Assembly: GCF_010894455.1 (NCBI RefSeq)
Contig: NZ_JAAIXY010000010.1
Coordinates: 150,024-214,023 of the forward strand
Origin: Myxococcus eversor
Lineage (GTDB): Bacteria > Myxococcota > Myxococcia > Myxococcales > Myxococcaceae
Length of the DNA stretch: 64,000 nt
Direction of reading: 5' to 3'
The notes under the pieces are model-generated. The model did not search any database. It was not told where the DNA came from and was given only the letters and a program-made list of their open reading frames with translations. Position numbers and translations under genes: made by a program. Below, piece by piece: positions 22,934 to 37,240 of the stretch (within the stretch, counting starts at the first letter, position 1; every line of letters starts with the position of its first letter).

Positions 22934-25900
22934 GTGCCGGAGGGCCCCTCCGCGCGGCAGCCGCGAGGTATGTCATTGCTTCCAGGAGCTCCCTTGCCCC
23001 CCACGCCCCCGTCCGCCCTGGTGACAGGAACCGAGTACGAACGCCTGCTCTCCAGCCTCCGTCTGAAGAGTCCCTGGGCGCTCGAGGGCCACACCCCGGA
23101 GGAGGCGCGGAGGGTGCTGGATGGCGGAGCGCAGGCTGCCCGCGTGCGGGGCGCAAGGGTCGACCATGGACCGTGGCGCTCGGTGGTGGACGTCATCGCC
23201 GAGCAGTGCCGGCGGCATGCCGACCGCGTCGCGCTCTCGGAGGGTGGCTCTGAAACCACCTATGCGCGGTTGGAGGAGCGGACGTGTGCCCTGGCCGCCA
23301 GCCTGCGGGCCCGGGGCATCGGGCGCGGAGACGTGGTCGCGGTGGTGCTGGAGCGGGGCCCTGCCTTCGTCGAGCTCGCCATCGCCGTCTGGCGCGTGGG
23401 TGCGGCCTATCTGCCCCTGGCGCCGTCACATCCCCAGGTGTGGCGCGAGGACATCGTTCGCAGGGTCGGCGCGGCGCTCGTGGTGGGTTCGCCCGCCAGC
23501 GAGGTGCCGGGAGTGCCTTTCCTGGATGCTTGTGCCGACGTGGGCTCCGGCGTGACGGCCGTGGAGGACACGGCGCTGGTCCCGGAGGACCTCGCCTACA
23601 TCATCTGCACGTCGGGCTCGACGGGCGAGCCCAAGCTGGTGATGACCGAGCATCGCGGCGTCGCCAACCTCCTCCATGCGCAGCGGGACTTCCTGGGCGC
23701 GTTGGGGCCGGACACGCGGGTGCTGCAGTTCTTCCACCCGTCGTTCGATGCCTCCCTGTTCGACCTGTTGATGGCGCTGTCCAACGGAGGCCGGCTGGAG
23801 ACGCTGGATGCGTCGCCGCTCTCCGGTGCGCCGCTGGCCCACGTGCTGGTGGACCGGCGCATCACCCACGCGGTGTTGCCCGCGACAGTCCTTCGCACGC
23901 TGCAACCGGGCGGCTTCCCCGACCTCCAGGTGGTGATGAGCACCGGGGATGTGTGCCTTCCGGAGACGGCCCGGCAGTGGGGCGCGCACCACCGCTTCGT
24001 CAACGGCTATGGCCCGACGGAGGTGACGGTGGCCAGCACGCTCCATGTGGTGCACGCCGTGGAGGGGGAGCGCGTGCCCATTGGCCGCCCCCTCTCCAAT
24101 TACCACGGGGTCATCCTCGATGAGCAACTGCGCCTCGTCCCCGACGGGGTGCCGGGTGAGCTGTGCATTGGCGGGGAGGGTGTCGGGCGCGGGTATCTGG
24201 GGCGGCCCGCCCTGACCGCCGAGCGGTTCATTCCGGATGCGTTCGGTCCGGTGCCGGGAGGGCGGCTGTACCGCAGTGGCGATTTGGGCCGGTGGTTGCC
24301 GGACGGCACACTGGAGTTCCTGGGCCGGCGCGACGACCAGGTGAAGATTCGCGGCGCACGCATCGAGCTGGGCCAGGTGGAAGCGGCCCTGGCCGCGCTG
24401 CCGGACGTGCGGGACGCGGTCGCCCTCATCGACGACACGCGGGAGCGCCTGCTGGGCTACGTGATGCCCGCCACCGGAGCAGCACTGTCCGGCGACGTGG
24501 TGCGCGCGGAGCTTGGACGCAGGCTTCCCGGCTACCTGGTGCCGGATGTCGTGGTCGTGGTGGAGGCCTGGCCCCTGAACACCAGCGGCAAGGTGGACCG
24601 GGCGCGACTGCCTCGCCCCCCACGCGCGGAGCGGACGGACTACCAGCCACCCGAGTCGCCCGGCGAAGTGGCGCTGGCGGCCATCGCCGCGGCGCTGCTC
24701 GGGATGGAGCGGGTGGGGCGTGATGACAACCTGTTCGAGCTGGGAGGACACTCGCTGTTCGCCACCCAGCTCGTGGCCCGCGTGCAGCGTGTGATGGGCG
24801 CGCGGTTGGAGTTGAGCGAGGTGCTCCAGGCCCCCACGGTGGCCCGGCTCGCGGCGCGCTTGCAGGAGGCGCGAGGTGGGGTGGACCTGGGCCCTCGGAG
24901 CGGCGGCGCGGGAATGGCGCTCACGCCTTCGTTTGGCCAGGAGCGGGTGTGGTTGATGCACAAGCTCAACCCGGACGCGCGGGCCTACCACACGCAGGCG
25001 GTGTTCCGTCTGGCGGGTGCGTTGGACTTCGCCGCGCTGCAGGCGAGCCTCTCCGACATCGTGCGTCGCCACGACGTGATGCGCTCCCGCTTCCCCGAAG
25101 TGGATGGAGAGCTGCGGTGTGAGCTGGAAGCCCCGTGGGAGGTGGAGCTCTCCCTCCAGGACTTCAGCGGCGTGGACGAGGCGCTGCTGGCCACCCGGGT
25201 GGCGGAGGCCGTCCGGGACGCGGTGCAGGCCCCGTTCGCGCTCGCCGAAGGCCGGCCCTTCCGCTGGCGGCTGTTGCGATTGGGTGCGCAGGAGCACCTC
25301 TTCGTGCACGTCGAACACCACATCGTGCATGACGGCTGGTCCTTCAACGTCTTCGTGCGCGAGCTGCTCAACGGCTACGCCGAACATGTCCGCCACGGCC
25401 AGGTGCGGCGCCCCGCGCTGGCGGTGCAGTACTACGATTACGCGCGCTGGCAGCGGGAGTGGGTGGGGACCGAGGCCGCAGCGGCGCAGCGCCGCTTCTG
25501 GCGTCAGGAATTGGAGGGCGCGGAGACCCGGCTCCAGCTCCCCCGCCGTGCTGCTCCCAACGGAAGACGGTTTCGTGGGGTGGCGCCCCGGGTGGAGCTG
25601 GACGGAGAGCTCGCGCGCCGCCTCCAGTCCCTGGCGGACCGCAACCACGCGTCCCTCTTCACCACGCTCCTCTCCGCGTACTTCGTCCTCCTGCACCGGT
25701 ACACCGGCTCGCGGGATTTGCTCGTCGGCTCCTCGGTCGCCAACCGGCGCTGGCAGGACACCGAGGGCATGCTGGGCATGTTCATCAACAACGTCGTGCT
25801 GCGGGGCCGGCTGGACGGCGACCCTTCGTTCGAGGAGTTCCTGGCGAGGATGCGGCGCACCACGCTGGAGGCCTATGACCACCAGGAGCTGCCCTATGAG

Positions 25901-28141
25901 CAGATCTTCGCGCAGTCGCCCGCGCGGCATCAGGGTGGCTTCAACCCGTTGATACAGACGATGTTCAACTTCCACGACTCGTCGGTGGGCACGCTCGACG
26001 CGTCACCCCTCGACGTCTCCTTCGTGGAGGGACTGGGCAACGGCTCGGCCAAGTTCGAGCTGTCCGTCGTCGCGGTGCCGCTCTACTCCGAACCGGGGCA
26101 CATCCAACGGCTGGGCGGGGACGTGGTGAGCATTCCCCGGTCCGAGGCCCCCGTGCGCTCCAGTCCACGCTCCTCCCTGAGCGGCATCCTGCTCTCGTGG
26201 GAGTTCGACTCCGACCTCTTCGAGGACTTCTTCATCACCGGCATGCTGTCCGCGTATCAGCAGCTCTTGCGCTCCATCACAGACGCGCCGGACACCCGCG
26301 TGTCCAGGTTGTCGCTGATGAACGACGCGGACCGGCGCGCGCTCGTCAGCGTGGGCCCACGCCAGGAGGCTCCTTGCTACCGGGTGACCGAGCTGTTCGC
26401 CTGGTGGACCCGCCGCGCGCCCGACGCCCCCGCGGTGAGGTCCGCCGACGGCGTGCTGACCTATGCCGAGCTGACGCGTCGGGCGGAGCACCTGGCGCAC
26501 CACCTGCGCGACCTGGGCGTCGGTCGTGGGGCGCTCGTGGCGGTGTGCATCCCCCGCTCGGCGGAGTTGGTCGTGGCCCAACTGGGAATCCTCATGGCGG
26601 GGGCGGCCTTCTTGTCACTGGACCCAGTCGCTCCTCCGGCCTGGCTGGAGCCGCTGATGCAGGAGGCCGGGGCCCATGCCCTCGTCACCACGGCGGCGCT
26701 GGCGGGTCGGCTCAACGGCCTGCCCACTGTCGTGCTGGATGAGATGCCCCCGGCGTCGTCCGGGCCGCCGCTGCCGGAGGGGAGTCAGTCGGACCTCGCG
26801 TACGTCCTCTACACGTCCGGGTCGACGGGCAAGCCCAAGGGCGTTCAAATCGAGCATCAGTCGGTCGTGTCCTTGCTGTACCGGACGGCCCTGGCCGAGG
26901 ACCTGGGTCCTGGCAAGACGATGCTGGCGATGGCGTCGGTGACCTTCGATATCTCGGTGCTGGAGGTCTGGGGCGCGCTGCTCAACGGCGCCGCGGTCCA
27001 CTTCCTGCCGCCGGGCTGGGACGTGCCGGGGCTGGCCCGCTGTCTCATCGACCAGCGAATCACGCATGCGGTGATTCCCCCCGTGGTGCTGCCCCGGTTG
27101 GCGGCCGACGCGCCGGAGGCCTTCGCCGCCCTGGACCGCGTGGTGGTGGGCGGGGATGTCTTCCCCCTGGAGGCGTTCCGCACGCTCGAGCGCGGAGGCT
27201 TCAAGAAGCTGACGAACGGCTACGGCCCCACGGAAATCACCGTCATGGCCAGCGGACACCGGCTCGACGACGGGCTCGACCCCGATGCGACCCACGTGCC
27301 CATCGGGCGACCGCTGTTCAATGCGCACCTCGTGGTGCTCGACGCGCACGGGCAGGTGGCTCCGCCGGGCGCAGTGGGGGAGCTCTGCATCGGTGGGGCC
27401 GGTCTCGCGAGGGGCTACCGCGACCAGCCGAGCCTCACCGCCGAGCGGTTCGTGCCGGACCCCTTCGGCTCACATCCGGGTGCGCGGCTCTATCGCAGTG
27501 GGGACCTGGCCCGGTGGCTGCCCGGAGGCGTCATCGAGTTCCTGGGCCGCCGTGATGAACAGGTGAAGGTCCGTGGCGTCCGGGTGGAGCTGGCCGAGGT
27601 TCGTGCCGTCCTGGCCGCGCATCCCGGCGTGGTGGATGCCCTCGCGCGTGTCGACTCGCGCGGGGGGGAGCCTTGCCTCGTGGGCTATGTCGTGGCCGGG
27701 TCGGCGACCCCGGTGTCGGCGCAGGCCGTGCGCGAGGACCTGGCGCGCAGGGTGCCGGCGCATCTGGTGCCTTCGGAGGTCGTCGTCCTGGAGTCCTGGC
27801 CGCTGACTCCGAACGGGAAGGTGGACCACTCGCGGCTGCCCGCGACCGACCGGCGCCCGGACGCGCCCTACACGGCGCCGAGGACCGAGGCCGAGGTCCG
27901 CGTCGCGGCGGTGGTCTCCGAGCTCCTGGGCGCAAGCCGGGTGGATGTCCATGAGAGTCTGCTCGCGCTCGGCATGCATTCGTTGCAGGCGATGCGGCTG
28001 GCCTCCCGGCTGAGCCGGATGGTGGGACGGGAGGTCGGGCTCGCTACGATTCTCACCGGGCCGACCATCGCGCAGCTGGCCCACGCGCTCGCCGAGGCCC
28101 CCGTCGCGAAGCCCCTCATCAAGAGGCTGCCACGCGGATGA
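22934..28141 (+). CDS. non-ribosomal peptide synthetase, A-PCP-C-A-PCP
   Basis: A 1735-residue NRPS. GTG start at 22934 with GGGGGAG 6 bases upstream. Domains: A1 (about 80-560; A3 core TSGSTGEPK at about 226, FDAS with D272, NGYGPTE at 357, A10 Lys553); PCP1 (GGHSL, phosphopantetheine Ser607); C (about 660-1095; intact HHIVHDG with His795/His796/Asp800); A2 (about 1149-1635; TSGSTGKPKG, NGYGPTE at 1428, A10 Lys1629); PCP2 (LGMHSL, Ser1683). It should activate two amino acids and join them. By hand alignment to GrsA, the pocket codes read roughly DAFVMTGVA-K (A1) and DILVVGGVM-K (A2); I cannot assign substrates. There is no epimerase, thioesterase or reductase. The stop overlaps the next ATG (ATGA). 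Confidence 0.95.
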   Translation: MPEGPSARQPRGMSLLPGAPLPPTPPSALVTGTEYERLLSSLRLKSPWALEGHTPEEARRVLDGGAQAARVRGARVDHGPWRSVVDVIAEQCRRHADRVALSEGGSETTYARLEERTCALAASLRARGIGRGDVVAVVLERGPAFVELAIAVWRVGAAYLPLAPSHPQVWREDIVRRVGAALVVGSPASEVPGVPFLDACADVGSGVTAVEDTALVPEDLAYIICTSGSTGEPKLVMTEHRGVANLLHAQRDFLGALGPDTRVLQFFHPSFDASLFDLLMALSNGGRLETLDASPLSGAPLAHVLVDRRITHAVLPATVLRTLQPGGFPDLQVVMSTGDVCLPETARQWGAHHRFVNGYGPTEVTVASTLHVVHAVEGERVPIGRPLSNYHGVILDEQLRLVPDGVPGELCIGGEGVGRGYLGRPALTAERFIPDAFGPVPGGRLYRSGDLGRWLPDGTLEFLGRRDDQVKIRGARIELGQVEAALAALPDVRDAVALIDDTRERLLGYVMPATGAALSGDVVRAELGRRLPGYLVPDVVVVVEAWPLNTSGKVDRARLPRPPRAERTDYQPPESPGEVALAAIAAALLGMERVGRDDNLFELGGHSLFATQLVARVQRVMGARLELSEVLQAPTVARLAARLQEARGGVDLGPRSGGAGMALTPSFGQERVWLMHKLNPDARAYHTQAVFRLAGALDFAALQASLSDIVRRHDVMRSRFPEVDGELRCELEAPWEVELSLQDFSGVDEALLATRVAEAVRDAVQAPFALAEGRPFRWRLLRLGAQEHLFVHVEHHIVHDGWSFNVFVRELLNGYAEHVRHGQVRRPALAVQYYDYARWQREWVGTEAAAAQRRFWRQELEGAETRLQLPRRAAPNGRRFRGVAPRVELDGELARRLQSLADRNHASLFTTLLSAYFVLLHRYTGSRDLLVGSSVANRRWQDTEGMLGMFINNVVLRGRLDGDPSFEEFLARMRRTTLEAYDHQELPYEQIFAQSPARHQGGFNPLIQTMFNFHDSSVGTLDASPLDVSFVEGLGNGSAKFELSVVAVPLYSEPGHIQRLGGDVVSIPRSEAPVRSSPRSSLSGILLSWEFDSDLFEDFFITGMLSAYQQLLRSITDAPDTRVSRLSLMNDADRRALVSVGPRQEAPCYRVTELFAWWTRRAPDAPAVRSADGVLTYAELTRRAEHLAHHLRDLGVGRGALVAVCIPRSAELVVAQLGILMAGAAFLSLDPVAPPAWLEPLMQEAGAHALVTTAALAGRLNGLPTVVLDEMPPASSGPPLPEGSQSDLAYVLYTSGSTGKPKGVQIEHQSVVSLLYRTALAEDLGPGKTMLAMASVTFDISVLEVWGALLNGAAVHFLPPGWDVPGLARCLIDQRITHAVIPPVVLPRLAADAPEAFAALDRVVVGGDVFPLEAFRTLERGGFKKLTNGYGPTEITVMASGHRLDDGLDPDATHVPIGRPLFNAHLVVLDAHGQVAPPGAVGELCIGGAGLARGYRDQPSLTAERFVPDPFGSHPGARLYRSGDLARWLPGGVIEFLGRRDEQVKVRGVRVELAEVRAVLAAHPGVVDALARVDSRGGEPCLVGYVVAGSATPVSAQAVREDLARRVPAHLVPSEVVVLESWPLTPNGKVDHSRLPATDRRPDAPYTAPRTEAEVRVAAVVSELLGASRVDVHESLLALGMHSLQAMRLASRLSRMVGREVGLATILTGPTIAQLAHALAEAPVAKPLIKRLPRG

Positions 28142-29652
28142 CGACCGCGTTCCCGATGTCGTTCGCCCAGCAGCGACTGTGCTTCCTGCACCGGATGGAC
28201 CCCACCGGGGCGGCCCACGCCACCGTTCGCTGCCACCGCGTGACGGGGCCCCTGGACCCACGAGCCCTGCGGGAGGCCCTGGACGTGCTGGTGGCCCGAC
28301 ATGAACCGCTGCGCACCGTCTTCCCGCTGGGGACGCAGCAGCAGGTGTCCGCGGAAGGGCAGGGGCATGTCCGCTTCCTGGAGGTCGCGACGGAGGCCGA
28401 GGCCCTGCGACACGCGCACGAGGAGGCGGCCCGGCCGTTCGACCTGGAGCACGGTCCCTTGCTGCGGCTCACCGTGATTCGGCTGGAGCCCCGGACGCAC
28501 GTGCTCGTCTTCGCCGTGCACCTGCTGGTGGCGGACGGCGCATCGCTCCAGGTCTTCACCGAGGAGCTGGCCCTCGTGTACCGGGCGGCGCTCCTGGGAG
28601 ACTCCGCCGTTCTGCCCGAGCTGCCCGTGCAGTACGTGGACTGGGCCGCATGGCAGCGCGAGCAGCTCACCGCCGAGCGGCGTGAAGCGCTGTCGCAATG
28701 GTGGAGGGAGCAGCTGTCGGGTGTCCCCCTGTTCCTGGACCTTGTCTCCCCGCGTCCCGTGCTGGGGCGGGGACGGCGCATGCACCGGGTGCTGCCCGCC
28801 GCCGTCGCCAACAGTGTGCGCGCCCTCGCGAGCACCGAGCGTCAGACGGTGTTCACGGTGCTGGCCGCCGCCTGCGGCATGGTGCTCGGGCACCGTGCGG
28901 GACGGGAGCGGGTGCTGCTGGGACTGGCCGTGGCCAACAGGGACCTGCCCGAGGTCGAGCGGGTGCTCGGGTTCTTCGTCAACACCGTCGTGCTCCAAGT
29001 GGACCTGCGCGGCGACCCCGACCTTCGCGAGCTGCTCACCCGGGTGGCGGCGGCCACGGCGGCGGCCTACGCGCACAAGGACCTGCCCTTCGAGCAGCTC
29101 GTCGCGGACCTGGCCCCGCCGAGAGACCCGACGCGGTCTCCCGTCGTCCAGGTCAACTTCGTCTACCATCCGGCGGGCACGGCGGGAGCACTGTCATTGC
29201 ACGGCTGCGAGGTGACGGAGCCCCTGCTGGACCTCCCCTCCGCGAAATTCGAACTCACCCTTCGGGTGGAGGAGCGCTCCGACGGCGCGTACACCGTGTG
29301 GGCCGAGTTCGATGAGAGTCTCTTCGAGCCCGCCTTCATCGAGGGGCTGCTCGCGGCCTACGAGGAAATCTTGCGGACCGCGACGCATCATGCGCGGACA
29401 TCGCTTCCGCGCTCCCCGATGGGGACGGGGGAAGAACACCTCCGCCGCATCTTCGCTGACGTGCTGAAGGTCGACTCGGTCTCTCCGGACGACGACTTCT
29501 TCCAGCGCGGCGGCCATTCCTTGCAGCTTGTCGAAGTCGCGGTCCGCATCCGGAGCGAGATGGGCCAGGACCTCAGCCTGCGCGAGCTGTACCAGCACCC
29601 CACCGTGGCGGGCGTTGCTGCCCGGCTCGAGCGAACAGGAGCATCCCGATGA
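28138..29652 (+). CDS. stand-alone NRPS C*-PCP protein with degenerate C domain
   Basis: A 504-residue protein: a condensation-fold domain (about 1-415), then a carrier domain with GGHSL and phosphopantetheine Ser461. There is no adenylation domain. The C-domain active-site motif, normally HHxxxDG, reads H128-L-L-V-A-D-G134 (codon CTG at 28522-28524), so the catalytic second His is missing; downstream C motifs such as GFFVNTVV are kept. Condensation is therefore unlikely. The domain may act as a docking or recruitment platform, as X domains do for P450s in glycopeptide synthetases, with the carrier loaded by transfer or by another A domain. Overlaps both neighbours by ATGA. Confidence 0.92.
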   Translation: MTTAFPMSFAQQRLCFLHRMDPTGAAHATVRCHRVTGPLDPRALREALDVLVARHEPLRTVFPLGTQQQVSAEGQGHVRFLEVATEAEALRHAHEEAARPFDLEHGPLLRLTVIRLEPRTHVLVFAVHLLVADGASLQVFTEELALVYRAALLGDSAVLPELPVQYVDWAAWQREQLTAERREALSQWWREQLSGVPLFLDLVSPRPVLGRGRRMHRVLPAAVANSVRALASTERQTVFTVLAAACGMVLGHRAGRERVLLGLAVANRDLPEVERVLGFFVNTVVLQVDLRGDPDLRELLTRVAAATAAAYAHKDLPFEQLVADLAPPRDPTRSPVVQVNFVYHPAGTAGALSLHGCEVTEPLLDLPSAKFELTLRVEERSDGAYTVWAEFDESLFEPAFIEGLLAAYEEILRTATHHARTSLPRSPMGTGEEHLRRIFADVLKVDSVSPDDDFFQRGGHSLQLVEVAVRIRSEMGQDLSLRELYQHPTVAGVAARLERTGASR

Positions 29653-30848
29653 GCCCTTCCTATCCCTTCCCCAAGGACTGGAGCCTTCCCCTGGAGCCTC
29701 CCGCTGAATACGAGCGGCTGCGGCAGGATGCTCCGGTCTGCCCCGTGCGGTTGTGGGACGGAGACACGCCGTGGCTGGTGAGTCGTTACAACGACGTGTT
29801 GGCGGTCCTGGGAGATCCCCGGCTGGTCGCGGACTCCACGCTGCCAGGGTTCCCGCACCTGTCGCCCGCGGCGGCGGCACGGCAGGGGAGGCCGCTGGCC
29901 TTCTTCCTTCGCCCCGATGCGGAGTACCGGGCCCAGCGGGCCATGCTGGTGCAGGAGTTCATGCCCCGGAGGATGGAAGCTTTGAGGCCGCGCATCCAGG
30001 CCACCGTGGACGCGGCGCTCGACGCGATGCTGGCCGGCCCGAAACCCGTGGACCTGATGGCGGCGTTCGCGCTCCCCGTGGCCCTGCAAGTCATTGGCGA
30101 TTTGCTCGGCGTGCCCCAGGACGGTGCCGAGGACTTGCATGTCCTCAGTAGGACGGTCGGCTCCCGCGCGTCCTCCCGCGAGGAGGCGAGGGCGGCGCTG
30201 ATGGCCCTGGATGACTTCTTCCTGCGGTTGGTGGAGGCGAACCTGCGTGAGCCTGGCGACACGCTCATCGGTCGCGTCGTCACGGAGCAGGTGGCGACGG
30301 GAAGGCTGAGCCCTCCGGACGCGGCCTCCCTGTTCCACGCGCTGTACTACGCCGGGCATGGGCCGTCCGCGTACATGTTCGGCCTGGGGACGCTGGCGCT
30401 GCTGCTCCACCCCGAGCAGCTCGGGAAGTTCCGTGAGCTGGAGGACCCCGCCGCCATCACCGCGGCGGTCCAGGAGCTCCTGCGTTTCGTCAATGTCTCT
30501 CATCTCGCCCGGCAGCGCGTCGCCACGGTGGATGTCACCGTGGGCGGCCAGCTCATTCGCGCCGGGGAGGGGGTCCTCGCGCAGCCGGACTCCGCCAACC
30601 GTGACGGGACGGTCTTCGAGGAGCCGGACCGCTTGGACCTCCACCGGGAGGCGCACCGCAACTTCGCCTTCGGCCATGGCATCCACCTGTGCACGGGGCG
30701 CGCGCTGGCTCTGATTGAGTTCGAGGTGGTGTTCAAGACGCTGTTCCAGCGCATCCCCACGTCGCGGCTGGCCGTGCCGCTGGAGGAGGTTCGCTTCAAG
30801 AAGGATGAGAACCTGCTCGGCGTGCACGAACTGCCGCTGACCTGGTGA
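29649..30848 (+). CDS. cytochrome P450, probable PCP-directed tailoring enzyme
   Basis: A 399-residue soluble bacterial P450. The haem-binding loop is FGHGIHLCTGRALA (Cys348), the K-helix ExxR is E276-L-L-R279, and the C-helix region reads YRAQRAMLVQEFMPRRM. The I helix reads A235-G-H-G-P-S, so the usual acid/alcohol pair (as in AGHETT) is absent. It is the last gene of the NRPS operon and overlaps the C*-PCP gene by ATGA, so equimolar expression with that protein is likely. It may hydroxylate or cross-link a carrier-bound aminoacyl group; this is inference. Confidence 0.94.
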   Translation: MSPSYPFPKDWSLPLEPPAEYERLRQDAPVCPVRLWDGDTPWLVSRYNDVLAVLGDPRLVADSTLPGFPHLSPAAAARQGRPLAFFLRPDAEYRAQRAMLVQEFMPRRMEALRPRIQATVDAALDAMLAGPKPVDLMAAFALPVALQVIGDLLGVPQDGAEDLHVLSRTVGSRASSREEARAALMALDDFFLRLVEANLREPGDTLIGRVVTEQVATGRLSPPDAASLFHALYYAGHGPSAYMFGLGTLALLLHPEQLGKFRELEDPAAITAAVQELLRFVNVSHLARQRVATVDVTVGGQLIRAGEGVLAQPDSANRDGTVFEEPDRLDLHREAHRNFAFGHGIHLCTGRALALIEFEVVFKTLFQRIPTSRLAVPLEEVRFKKDENLLGVHELPLTW

Positions 30849-34072: not shown

Positions 34073-34180
34073 TTCAGGCCCAGGCGCCCAAGGAGCGCGC
34101 GGAGGCGTTCCGCGTCCTCCATGGCGGCCGTCAACACGCCCACTCGCCCTTGGGGGGCGCCTGAGACTTCAGGACCGTGC

Positions 34181-35494
34181 CTACTCGCGCGTGGCCTCCG
34201 CCATCCGCGGCGGCGGGGACACCGTGAGGATTCCGCTCGTCCCCGGTGCGCTCCGCGCCAGCACGCGGCCGTCGGAAGACACCACCACCGCGATGCCTCC
34301 CAGCGAGGCTCGCACCGCGGGCAGCCGCAGCTCCACCGCCCGCATCACCACGCCGCCGATGGCCTGGTCCACGGCGAAGCGACTTCCAGCCAGGGGCAGA
34401 TCACTGGCCAGGACCGCGAGCAGCTCTCCTCCCGCCTCCCGTCCACGCAAGGCGGTGGCGCGGCTGAAGGCCTCGTAGCAGATGAGCGGAATCACCTTCC
34501 GCCCCGCGAGGGACAGCAGCGGCCTGGCCTGGCTGGCCACGAGCGGCTCCCCTTTTCCCTGAAGCCCGAAGATGGAGCGCTCGCCGATGGGGACGAGGAT
34601 GGACTTCCCTCGGGTCTCCCGCAGACGCCCGTCCGCATCAAAGGCGGCGGCGGCGTTGAAAAAACCCTCGGGCGTTCGGAGCGTCAGCCCCGCGATGGCG
34701 GGGACCGGCAGGCGCGCATCGAAGGCCTCGAGGACCTCCGGCCGTGACACACGCCCCTCGGTCCCCCGCTGGAGCCCCCGTACCGTGGACTCTGGCCAGA
34801 TGAGCCGCTCCGTGGCCTCGGGCACCGACTTCGGCACCCGCACGGAAGAGGCCATGTGGACCACGCCCGTCCCCTGGAGCGCATCGTCCGCCACGGGCAG
34901 CCGGGGCAGCGCGGTCAGGGCCACCATGACGACCACGGCCGGCAGCAACAGGCGGCGCGAGCGCAGGGCCACGGCCTCTCCCACGCACACGGCGGCGAGC
35001 AGGCAGAGCACCAGCGTGGGCACCCACCCCACGAAGCCCACGGCCCTCAGGATGGGCGGCAGCATCCACTGGGAATGCAGCACGTGCGTCATGGAGAAGC
35101 CGCTCCACGCCTCCACTCCCGCCTCGCCCAGCACCCATCCCACCGGCAACCAATACCTGGGAGGCACCCGCTTCACGGGCAGCGCCGCCAGCGCCAGCAG
35201 CGGCACCTGGGACAGCGCCCCGGTGGCCGTCCAGCCCAGAAACGCCACGATGAACGGCGGAGGAAGCCAGGGGGCCGTGTAGAACCCCGCCGTCCCCACC
35301 CACCAGTGCAAGGCCACGCCCTGGCGCACGAGCGCGGCCAGCAGCAGCGCCGCGGCGGACTGGCGCCAGCCGTTGGCGCGGTGGAGCGACCACCCCAGCA
35401 GCGCGATGCCCACCCAGGCCAAGGGCTGCGCCCACGTCCACAGGAAGGCGACGCCCAGCGCGACACCCGAGCCCAGGGCCAGCAGCAGGCTCAT
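34181..35494 (-). CDS. apolipoprotein N-acyltransferase (Lnt)-like membrane protein
   Basis: About 437 residues from ATG 35494, whose start overlaps the stop of the upstream gene (ATGA). The N-terminal half has six to eight hydrophobic segments. The C-terminal half is a nitrilase-fold domain with the complete Lnt triad by position: Glu235 (WPEST), Lys297 (GKSILVPIGE) and Cys339 (LICYEAF). Length is somewhat below E. coli Lnt (512). Lnt N-acylates the Cys of diacylated lipoproteins in the inner membrane. Encoded right after two lipoproteins, this may be a dedicated paralogue, not the housekeeping enzyme. Confidence 0.85.
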   Translation of the reverse strand: MSLLLALGSGVALGVAFLWTWAQPLAWVGIALLGWSLHRANGWRQSAAALLLAALVRQGVALHWWVGTAGFYTAPWLPPPFIVAFLGWTATGALSQVPLLALAALPVKRVPPRYWLPVGWVLGEAGVEAWSGFSMTHVLHSQWMLPPILRAVGFVGWVPTLVLCLLAAVCVGEAVALRSRRLLLPAVVVMVALTALPRLPVADDALQGTGVVHMASSVRVPKSVPEATERLIWPESTVRGLQRGTEGRVSRPEVLEAFDARLPVPAIAGLTLRTPEGFFNAAAAFDADGRLRETRGKSILVPIGERSIFGLQGKGEPLVASQARPLLSLAGRKVIPLICYEAFSRATALRGREAGGELLAVLASDLPLAGSRFAVDQAIGGVVMRAVELRLPAVRASLGGIAVVVSSDGRVLARSAPGTSGILTVSPPPRMAEATRE

Positions 35495-36165
35495 CGCTTC
35501 CGGAACCTCTCCGGCGGAACCGGGACCAGCGCCGTGGCCTCCCCCGGGAGCTCCACCTTCACGAGGTTGGGGTGCTTGCGCGCCAACCGGGCCTCCAGCA
35601 CCGCGGGCTCCCAGCGCGACACCTCTTCGAGGGCCGTGTCCATGGCCTTCGCGTCCAACCGCCACAACTCGAGCGCCTTGCCAGAGCGCGTACGGACGAA
35701 GCGAGCGCGCTGCTCGGGGCTCCCGGCCTGGAAGAAGCCCTCGTCATAGAGCAATCCATCCAGGGGCAGCTTGTACGTGGAGCCCAGCACCCAGGCCCCC
35801 GGCGCCTCTTCCGCGAGCGCCGTGAGCAGCGGCGTCGAGAAGCCGTAGCAGGTATCCAGGACGATGAGGTCCGGGCGATAGCACCGAGCCACCCGCGCGA
35901 GGTCCTCCGGGGACGCGTTGAGATAGCTCGGCGGCAGGCTGTGTCCGCTGAGCACGAGCACCTCCGCCCTCACTCCCGAGGGACAGGAGAAGTCCTCGAG
36001 GGCCACATGCGGGCAGCGGTCATCGGAGCACGGCGACTGCTGCAACTCGGCGACATCCGCTCGTGAGTAGACCGCCACGACGCGCTCCTGCACTCCGGGG
36101 GCCTGCTGACACGCGCAGGCCCCCAGAAGCAGGGCCAGAAGCCAGTGCCTTACCAACACAGTCAT
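35491..36165 (-). CDS. lipoprotein with caspase-like (clan CD) His/Cys arrangement
   Basis: A 224-residue lipoprotein: leader MTVLVRHWLLALLLGAC with lipobox Cys17. The mature part shows a hydrophobic strand followed by His (AEVLVLSGHS, His75) and, 30 residues on, a strand followed by Cys (DLIVLDTCYG, Cys106). This order and context are those of clan CD cysteine peptidases (caspases, gingipains, CHAT). The Gly usually after the His is Ser here. Peptidase activity is inference. It sits between a Cys-rich lipoprotein (42-base gap) and the Lnt-like gene (ATGA overlap). Confidence 0.68.
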   Translation of the reverse strand: MTVLVRHWLLALLLGACACQQAPGVQERVVAVYSRADVAELQQSPCSDDRCPHVALEDFSCPSGVRAEVLVLSGHSLPPSYLNASPEDLARVARCYRPDLIVLDTCYGFSTPLLTALAEEAPGAWVLGSTYKLPLDGLLYDEGFFQAGSPEQRARFVRTRSGKALELWRLDAKAMDTALEEVSRWEPAVLEARLARKHPNLVKVELPGEATALVPVPPERFRKR

Positions 36166-36207
36166 GGACGGTTCCAGTTCCTGGCTCGAAACACGGGGAG
36201 GCCTGTG

Positions 36208-36942
36208 TTAGCAGCGGCACCAATACGAGGCGCACCACGAGCGGCAGTAGTTGCTCAGCCCGGTGAGCTTGCAGCCGTTCCGCCTGTACTGCTGGGAGCA
36301 GCCGACGGTGGAGCCCACGTACCAGACGCCCACCGCGATGAGGGTGACAACCGCCGCGGCGCCGCCCTTCCCATTATGGTCCTCGGGCAGGTACTTGCTG
36401 ATGACTTCAATCATCGTGAACAGGGAGTACTCGGAGACGGCTTCCAGCTCCCCGGTATCGAGGAGAATCGCGGCCGCTTCCTGCTCGTTGGCGGCCAGCT
36501 TGTCTCCCACCTGGATGGTCTTGTCCGCGTTGAAGACCATGTGCAGCTTGCCGCCTTCATGGTGGACCCAGGCGTCGCCCGTCTCGTTGTTCACCGTGTA
36601 GAGGGTGCGCTCCCCGGTCTTCTCGTCAATCACCTCGAGGACGGCGTCCTCCGTGCCGCGGACGAGCGTCTGCCGCAGGACGAAGTTCATGAAGCGGGGC
36701 ACCTCGTCATGCATCGCGATGCCCAGCCGGCCAAACCGCTCCAGGCTCCCGTCGATGACTTGCGCGGGCTCCACGGCGCTGAAGACGATGTTCGCGGCCA
36801 GGGCCTCGCGCGCCTTGGCCATCGGGTTGGCCTCGGGAGCACGGCTGCAGCCGATCTGAACGGTGAAGACCGCGAGCATCGCGAGCGTTACCGCGCGCAG
36901 TCCGTTGGAAGAACCCTGGTGTGACTCAGCCGGATGAAACAT
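36208..36942 (-). CDS. lipoprotein with C-terminal membrane segment and Cys-rich tail
   Basis: A 244-residue protein; ATG at 36942 with AGGAG 9 bases upstream. The N-terminus looks like a lipoprotein leader (AVTLAMLAVFTVQIGC). The middle part is soluble (TLYTVNNETGDAWVHHEGG; NADKTIQVGDKLAANEQE). Near the C-terminus there is a hydrophobic stretch (GGAAAVVTLIAVGVWYVGST) and then a tail of about 30 residues with seven Cys (CSQQYRRNGCKL, then YCRSWCASYWCRC). Function unknown. It is the first gene of a three-gene unit with the caspase-like lipoprotein and the Lnt-like acyltransferase. Confidence 0.7.
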   Translation of the reverse strand: MFHPAESHQGSSNGLRAVTLAMLAVFTVQIGCSRAPEANPMAKAREALAANIVFSAVEPAQVIDGSLERFGRLGIAMHDEVPRFMNFVLRQTLVRGTEDAVLEVIDEKTGERTLYTVNNETGDAWVHHEGGKLHMVFNADKTIQVGDKLAANEQEAAAILLDTGELEAVSEYSLFTMIEVISKYLPEDHNGKGGAAAVVTLIAVGVWYVGSTVGCSQQYRRNGCKLTGLSNYCRSWCASYWCRC

Positions 36943-37240
36943 GTGGGGACACTCCTCTTGCTGTGGGGAACTCGCACCCGGCTCGAGGCGGGGTGCGATG
37001 GTGACTGCACTCCCCGTGAAGGCAGGAACCAGGCCATCTCTGGCTTCCCTCTAAATCCGTGTCGCTACGCTGGTGCCGGTGTTGCGTCCGCCGCAACAAA
37101 GCTTCACTATCCGTGACATCCGGCGCTACAACCCCCACTGCTCATCCAGTGCCGCGCAGCGGCGGCAGCCCCCCATTCGAGGCCGACCCAACCAGGCGGG
37201 GTGACGCGCAAGGAACGGCGACTCAAGGAGGTGGCTGCAT
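36943..37240. other. intergenic, nothing recognised
   Basis: About 300 bases between the start of the Cys-rich lipoprotein gene and the end of the WYL regulator gene. It must hold the promoter of the three-gene lipoprotein unit. No repeat or clear hairpin seen. Confidence 0.4.

Follow-up and report, generated by a model that had tools for sequence, protein, structure and literature searches.

Background

As a rule, one housekeeping Lnt serves all lipoproteins. In this study we examined a locus of Myxococcus eversor (GCF_010894455.1), lying in a stretch of 64,000 nucleotides (nt) hereafter called the window, in which three neighbouring genes on the minus strand code for an exported-type protein with a Cys-rich tail (gene 1, the candidate substrate), a predicted clostripain-like protease (gene 2) and an Lnt-like membrane acyltransferase (gene 3). 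Our analyses support these genes as a dedicated unit, which we read with moderate confidence as a self-contained, horizontally moving cassette for the cut-and-acylate maturation of one exported protein.

The closest described relatives of the two putative enzymes are Lnt itself and the clostripain (C11) proteases. Lnt of E. coli (PDB 5XHQ/5N6H; TIGR00546) shares with gene 3 a membrane N-terminal part and a nitrilase-type domain with Glu/Lys/Cys and a second Glu, whereas gene 3 lacks the LNT_N match, the full equivalog score and the C-terminal transmembrane (TM) helix of Lnt, and is accessory, mobile and paired with or fused to a protease. Gene 2 resembles C11 enzymes, which favour Arg at P1 (PMC4357240), in its predicted fold, its His/Cys dyad and an Asp two residues before the Cys, but differs from that family in being short (about 200 amino acids, aa), a lipoprotein or acyltransferase fusion, and without a Pfam family match.

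At the level of whole systems, three comparisons arise. In bacterial gasdermins a caspase-like protease removes an inhibitory C-terminus and Cys acylation matters (PMC9079055); their operons, like the cassette, place a clan CD protease next to a small lipid-associated substrate, but here substrate and protease are predicted to be exported, a dedicated acyltransferase is encoded and no gasdermin appears in the fold lists. The SitA toxins of Myxococcus, known from outer membrane exchange, are likewise myxobacterial, mobile and exported, and their C-terminal cargo varies as well (PMC5562445, PMC8546572; an acyltransferase is mentioned in neither). Gene 1, with 244 aa and a domain of ~150 aa, has neither their ~375-aa escort domain nor a nuclease cargo, and the cassette holds no SitI partner and no fourth gene; SitA membership was ruled out by the missing escort domain, nuclease and SitI. 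The MYXO-CTERM/myxosortase and GlyGly-CTERM/rhombosortase systems also combine a protease with the presumed lipidation of an exported protein, and one variant locus described below includes a rhombosortase-like rhomboid, but the protease of the cassette is of another type, its acyltransferase is encoded alongside, and gene 1 lacks the Cys-TM-Arg C-terminus (Cys motif, TM helix and Arg-rich end), which excludes it from MYXO-CTERM. Gene 1 may also be reminiscent of the fulvocin C / halocin C8 bacteriocins; no Cys-rich bacteriocin precursor family of that type was among the Pfam/NCBIfam matches at E<=1.

In sum, the cassette would work like Lnt plus clostripain; it is neither a SitA nor a MYXO-CTERM system, and probably not a gasdermin system. 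No paper joining Lnt, a caspase-like protease and a lipoprotein was found in the open-access literature, whose coverage was incomplete and left subscription papers outside the search. We regard the cassette as a new variant among precursor-plus-processing-enzyme cassettes, and give the smaller share of our belief to its chemistry being of a new kind.

Co-occurrence and horizontal transfer of the three genes

Among 195 Myxococcota genomes, the profiles of genes 1, 2 and 3 matched an identical set of 14, with 15 loci each. All 14 are Myxococcaceae, within which the distribution is patchy, and one further genome (G053) has a distant gene 3 and matches neither of the other profiles. The profiles were built from family members, which makes the scores circular but leaves the absence from other genomes free of this flaw. 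A scan of contigs from GTDB located the cassette in Corallococcus llansteffanensis, C. carmarthensis (two loci), Myxococcus dinghuensis, M. vastator and others, and added four more diverged loci in metagenome-assembled genomes (MAGs; L094, L095, L096 and L099), each with the three functions. The three-gene layout recognised in a preliminary description of the window is therefore not a matter of chance, the trio being kept together in relatives, and there is good support for a dedicated unit.

A block of ~2,970-3,000 bp (34171 to 37138-37172) is common to the window and six other genomes at 92-96% identity, and its flanks are mostly different among the seven. The exceptions are L077, collinear upstream to 39146, and L079, which matches a polyketide-synthase/P450 region separately, elsewhere in its arrangement. 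Empty sites point the same way: in 14 of 16 Corallococcus genomes the flanks of the G029 copy are present with no cassette between them, the alignments breaking off where the upstream gene ends and restarting about 3.0 kb later. That copy (L070) is diverged, its gene 3 being 58% identical; near its right junction, at about 6773, the Lnt-like gene takes its final ~27 codons from the chromosomal flank, so the reading frame exits the inserted cassette. Between genera, synonymous divergence (dS) of gene 3 is 0.08-0.12, far below the 0.53-0.58 of housekeeping lnt, which argues that the cassette moved horizontally. Empty sites and the shared block together show joint movement of the trio, and by these comparisons the cassette is a horizontally moving unit of exactly these three genes. 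No transposase lies inside it, and no convincing terminal inverted repeats, consensus promoter or terminator were detected. A phage or plasmid origin was rejected, as no relative appeared in IMG/VR or PLSDB. One record (L092 / G066:C2) is placed by the genome collection in the window's own genus, so that its label 'Comamonas sp. KCTC 72670' looks wrong.

An Lnt paralogue distinct from the housekeeping enzyme

Gene 3 has the motifs WPE, K..LVP.GE and CYE of the Lnt active site and, aligned to E. coli Lnt, keeps E235, K297 and C339 together with the second Glu, E305 (residue roles after PMC8048626), so that the complete Glu/Lys/Cys triad of the preliminary description is confirmed. CN_hydrolase (PF00795, 33 bits) was the sole family in its Pfam scan, and its 67.5 bits to TIGR00546 are half of the curated equivalog cut-off of 132.9 and below it. 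The LNT_N domain (PF20154) gave no match at E<=1 (0.11 for the L067 homologue), a weak alignment of the N-terminal part with E. coli Lnt persists, and hydropathy found no C-terminal hydrophobic segment corresponding to the eighth TM helix of Lnt.

The same 11.4-Mb genome (Myxococcaceae) carries a second Lnt of 543 aa on a different contig, which reaches 213.8 bits to TIGR00546 and has both LNT_N and the C-terminal hydrophobic helix. Across the 195 genomes, members of the gene 3 family score at least 490 bits against its profile and all other Lnt at most 77; an extra row at 96 bits is a piece of the G074 copy divided at a contig end. The second genomic copy and this score gap rule out gene 3 as the housekeeping Lnt, and the idea of a dedicated enzyme, which a sole Lnt in the genome would have contradicted, thus holds. 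Judged by its sequence, gene 3 belongs to a separate Lnt paralogue family with a complete active site.

A predicted clostripain-like protease coupled to the acyltransferase

Pfam/NCBIfam scans gave no meaningful match for genes 1 and 2, no model reaching E<=1 for the gene 2 family. The gene 2 motifs SGHS...LDTCYG nevertheless correspond to a clan CD His/Cys dyad, with H75 and C106 unchanged in 15 sequences, and its AlphaFold2 model (predicted local distance difference test, pLDDT, 86.9) is closest to C11 proteases (VIA; best match 6nag, Z 12.1, root-mean-square deviation 3.5 A, 198 residues) as against Z 7-9 for other clan CD families. A C11 zymogen can be aligned to the D-x-C-Y stretch at no better than E 0.26. 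The prediction for gene 2 is thus a clostripain-like (C11) protease of clan CD, tethered to the membrane and with an intact dyad. The peptidase suspected in the preliminary description is supported by this prediction; for the label caspase-like given there, clostripain-like is the better name.

In five diverged loci from four MAGs (L067/G090, L068/G011, L095, L096 and L099) a single open reading frame of 636-707 aa fuses the two enzymes, Lnt part first, and gene 1 lies nearby in each. From such arrangements the protease and ACYLTRANSFERASE are, as far as sequence can tell, coupled. In the window type, the C-terminus of the Lnt-like enzyme would be periplasmic because the last TM helix is missing, a topology that would suit the fusion and the stand-alone lipoprotein protease alike. 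A variant unit in G053 (L069, G053:C89, 1482-4250) comprises a lipoprotein with calcium-type repeats ending CSCPMRD, the distant Lnt-like enzyme and a rhomboid. The rhomboid gene shares an ATGA overlap with that of the Lnt-like enzyme, and its weak match to rhombosortase, at 32 bits, falls short of the cut-off. With this rhomboid partner the protease type therefore seems exchangeable, its pairing with the Lnt-like enzyme being kept, in one locus.

A fourth protein, secreted and Cys-rich (Table 1), lies near all five fused genes; four of its copies carry an HE(I/L)VET motif, and the two examined had no Pfam/NCBIfam match. It is possibly a metalloprotease-like partner.

Gene 1: predicted export, conserved domain and variable cargo

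Gene 1 opens with a hydrophobic signal, followed by a beta-rich domain, a hydrophobic segment and the tail; past the hydrophobic helix it ends in CRSWCASYWCRC, with six Cys within the final 30 residues. Hydropathy gives most members of the family a signal-type N-terminus, and an exported-type protein is what the sequence indicates. The preliminary description had seen two lipoproteins here, which stands for gene 2, whose lipobox LLGAC passes the PROSITE-type pattern, and is less secure for gene 1, whose VQIGC fails it with Gln at -3.

The lipobox bears directly on a first alternative, private lipoprotein triacylation, in which gene 3 would N-acylate the lipobox Cys of gene 1 (and of gene 2), perhaps with an unusual chain, and gene 2 would trim the Cys tail separately. 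Were the lipobox Cys the real acceptor, the scheme of the preliminary description would be right. This would be ordinary Lnt chemistry; a lipobox-like Cys is present in most gene 1 proteins and stand-alone gene 2 proteins, the G053 substrate is a clear lipoprotein, and the housekeeping enzyme might cope poorly with the atypical lipobox seen in the window clade. However, the gene 1 homologue of L099, beside a fused Lnt-protease, has a signal peptide without any N-terminal Cys, that of L066 has a poor lipobox which fails the pattern as the window clade does, a housekeeping Lnt is already present, and the protease fusion would be left unexplained. We consider this alternative unlikely: the dedicated unit is upheld, and its lipobox version is the weaker for the gene 1 proteins that have no lipobox.

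The N-domain of gene 1 is conserved while the C-terminal cargo varies among loci. In the window clade the cargo is a hydrophobic helix with the Cys tail; the fused clade has a Cys-rich tail of another type; in G028 (L066:6255-8420) ricin-B lectin repeats replace the Cys tail in a cargo of ~500 aa; and at L094 (4553-5941) gene 1 is a tandem pair, 96% identical over the first 172 residues and diverged in the tails. Also at L094, gene 2 overlaps at its end with a PlsC-like acyltransferase gene. Gene 1 also has omega values of 0.40-0.76, compared with 0.10-0.15 (gene 2) and 0.24-0.32 (gene 3), rough figures from few substitutions by which it is fast-evolving relative to both enzymes. Such rapid change and swappable cargo are typical of a product, not of an enzyme subunit, and together with the L094 duplicates they speak against a second alternative, in which gene 1 would be a partner (chaperone, receptor or inhibitor) of a protease-acyltransferase acting on other envelope or prey proteins. 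That alternative, which we hold to be improbable, would fit the single gene 1 of each cassette, since a profile scan found no other homologue per genome and hence no wider substrate family, and the ricin repeats, which could direct a complex to glycans. A weak gene 1 profile match in G081 is an unrelated dehydrogenase.

The structure model of gene 1 (pLDDT 73) shows a beta-rich N-domain and yields no confident structural match. OspA, p32 and PRELI-like matches all had Z<8 and were set aside as unusable, and PDB sequence matches to designed trefoils were judged noise. The beta-rich N-domain, and the pairing of a caspase-type protease with a small substrate that bears a C-terminal appendage, recall bacterial gasdermins and raise a third alternative: a lipidated gene 1 silenced by its C-terminal tail, from which cleavage on contact or stress would free an N-domain damaging the cell's own or a neighbour's membrane. 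Bacterial gasdermins are cytoplasmic and have no signal peptide, whereas gene 1 is predicted to carry one; no gasdermin is among its fold matches (best Z 7.3), a ricin-repeat lectin of ~500 aa would be odd as a small inhibitory tail, and we know of no gasdermin cassette with an Lnt. An exported gasdermin-like switch is thus distinctly improbable.

Between domain and cargo lies a linker (residues 188-198) modelled with pLDDT <50. In a scan of ten-residue blocks it was the sole region of the C-terminal half with Lys/Arg in nine of nine diverse homologues (GK|GG, SK|GH, GR|GG, SK|I, AR|Q, TR|V, SR|G, AR|T and AK|N). The protease processing of the Cys tail envisaged in the preliminary description is plausible from this conserved Lys/Arg, the cut itself being something we infer.

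A proposed cut-and-acylate mechanism

In the reading that we favour, gene 1 would be exported first, and gene 2, tethered through its lipid or by fusion, would cut it after the linker Lys/Arg. By Lnt chemistry, gene 3 would take up an acyl chain from phospholipid and pass it to the newly exposed alpha-amine, which in the window clade is that of a Gly, so that a lipidated Cys-rich product would result; another amine of gene 1 is an alternative acceptor. The free N-terminus is the favoured acceptor because it would be the sole site present in every variant, L099 having no N-terminal Cys and L066 no Cys tail of the window type, and we hold it possible, short of expecting it, that the new N-terminus is indeed the acceptor. 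As the weakest step, the product may work outside the cell in competition or predation, like a lipidated bacteriocin or toxin; the accessory, mobile and fast-evolving pattern suggests such a role, for and against which we see the balance as about even.

Maturation by cutting and acylation draws on the co-occurrence, the fusions, the G053 rhomboid, the insertion unit and its horizontal transfer, and on the C11 fold with its Arg preference, the linker Lys/Arg, the omega of gene 1 and its swapped cargo. Several points weigh against it. The usual acceptor of Lnt is S-diacylglyceryl-Cys, and we know of no bare alpha-amine serving as one; a housekeeping Lnt is present in the genome anyway. The linker pattern represents nine lineages in one alignment, and block positions 37 and 87-88 are likewise Lys/Arg throughout. 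Fold searches found no confident relative for the N-domain and, should the product be a toxin, no immunity gene is visible in the cassette. The cut, the site of acylation and the role are all inferred.

Organisation of the locus

All three minus-strand reading frames of the preliminary description were recovered at its coordinates (Table 1), as were the 42-nt gap between genes 1 and 2 and the overlap of genes 2 and 3 through ATGA. The length of gene 3 is counted from ATG; an alternative GTG start (494 aa) would extend it back into gene 2. Besides the three genes, the ~3.0-kb cassette includes an upstream region, whose hairpin has counterparts of different sequence at the same site in other clades and is perhaps a regulatory 5' leader. 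A PADLOC scan of the three genes gave zero matches, and an anti-phage system was rejected on this ground. Close to the cassette, at 22994-30848, are a large gene of polyketide-synthase type, one of condensation/carrier type and a P450. They recur by the cassette of L079 (C. llansteffanensis) in another arrangement, and this part of the window looks like a mosaic island.

Table 1. Features of the cassette in window coordinates, and of the fourth Cys-rich protein in locus coordinates.
Feature	Position	Strand	Basis or remark
Whole mobile cassette, ~3.0 kb	34171..37138	-	upstream edge 37138 to 37172, varies with genome compared
Gene 1, 244 aa, exported-type protein, conserved N-domain and Cys-rich tail, candidate substrate	36208..36942	-	
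Gene 2, 224 aa, lipoprotein, clostripain-like (C11, clan CD) protease fold	35491..36165	-	predicted structure
Gene 3, 437 aa, Lnt-like membrane acyltransferase without C-terminal TM helix of Lnt	34181..35494	-	PF00795, TIGR00546
Gene 1 Cys32, atypical lipobox VQIGC	36847..36849	-	
Gene 1 N-domain, residues 38-187, beta-rich	36382..36831	-	model; without confident PDB match
Gene 1 disordered linker, residues 188-198, Lys192-Gly, proposed cleavage region	36349..36381	-	pLDDT <50
Gene 1 hydrophobic helix, residues 195-213	36304..36360	-	hydropathy; model shows helix 194-222
Gene 1 Cys-rich tail, residues 215-244, six Cys	36211..36300	-	sequence
Gene 2 catalytic His75, invariant	35941..35943	-	alignment
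Gene 2 catalytic Cys106, invariant, in D-T/A-C-Y-G	35848..35850	-	alignment
Gene 3 Glu235, E. coli Lnt E267 equivalent	34790..34792	-	alignment
Gene 3 Lys297, E. coli Lnt K335 equivalent	34604..34606	-	alignment
Gene 3 Glu305, E. coli Lnt E343 equivalent	34580..34582	-	alignment
Gene 3 Cys339, E. coli Lnt C387 equivalent	34478..34480	-	alignment
Hairpin directly upstream of gene 1 ribosome-binding site	36973..36997	-	
Fourth Cys-rich protein	L067:5902-6756, L068:6051-6905, L095:3614-4576, L096:2577-3419, L099:6618-7421		

Implications

We tentatively propose that the cassette performs a new extracytoplasmic lipid tagging, in which a clostripain-type protease would expose an internal N-terminus and the attached Lnt-type enzyme would acylate it with membrane phospholipid, a reading to which we give about a third of our confidence. 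Eukaryotic proteins that are N-myristoylated following internal cleavage are formally similar (PMC4200515). If true, the cassette would constitute a bacterial counterpart of this post-cleavage modification, on a mobile three-gene unit making a lipidated Cys-rich effector. A mobile, single-partner, protease-fused Lnt paralogue would likewise represent Lnt chemistry recruited to another purpose, and, being small and testable, would lend itself to studying how protein acylation is coupled to a protease outside the cytoplasm. The uncharacterised gene 1 family, with its swappable cargo in predatory bacteria, is a place to seek new antibacterial lipoproteins or lipopeptides.

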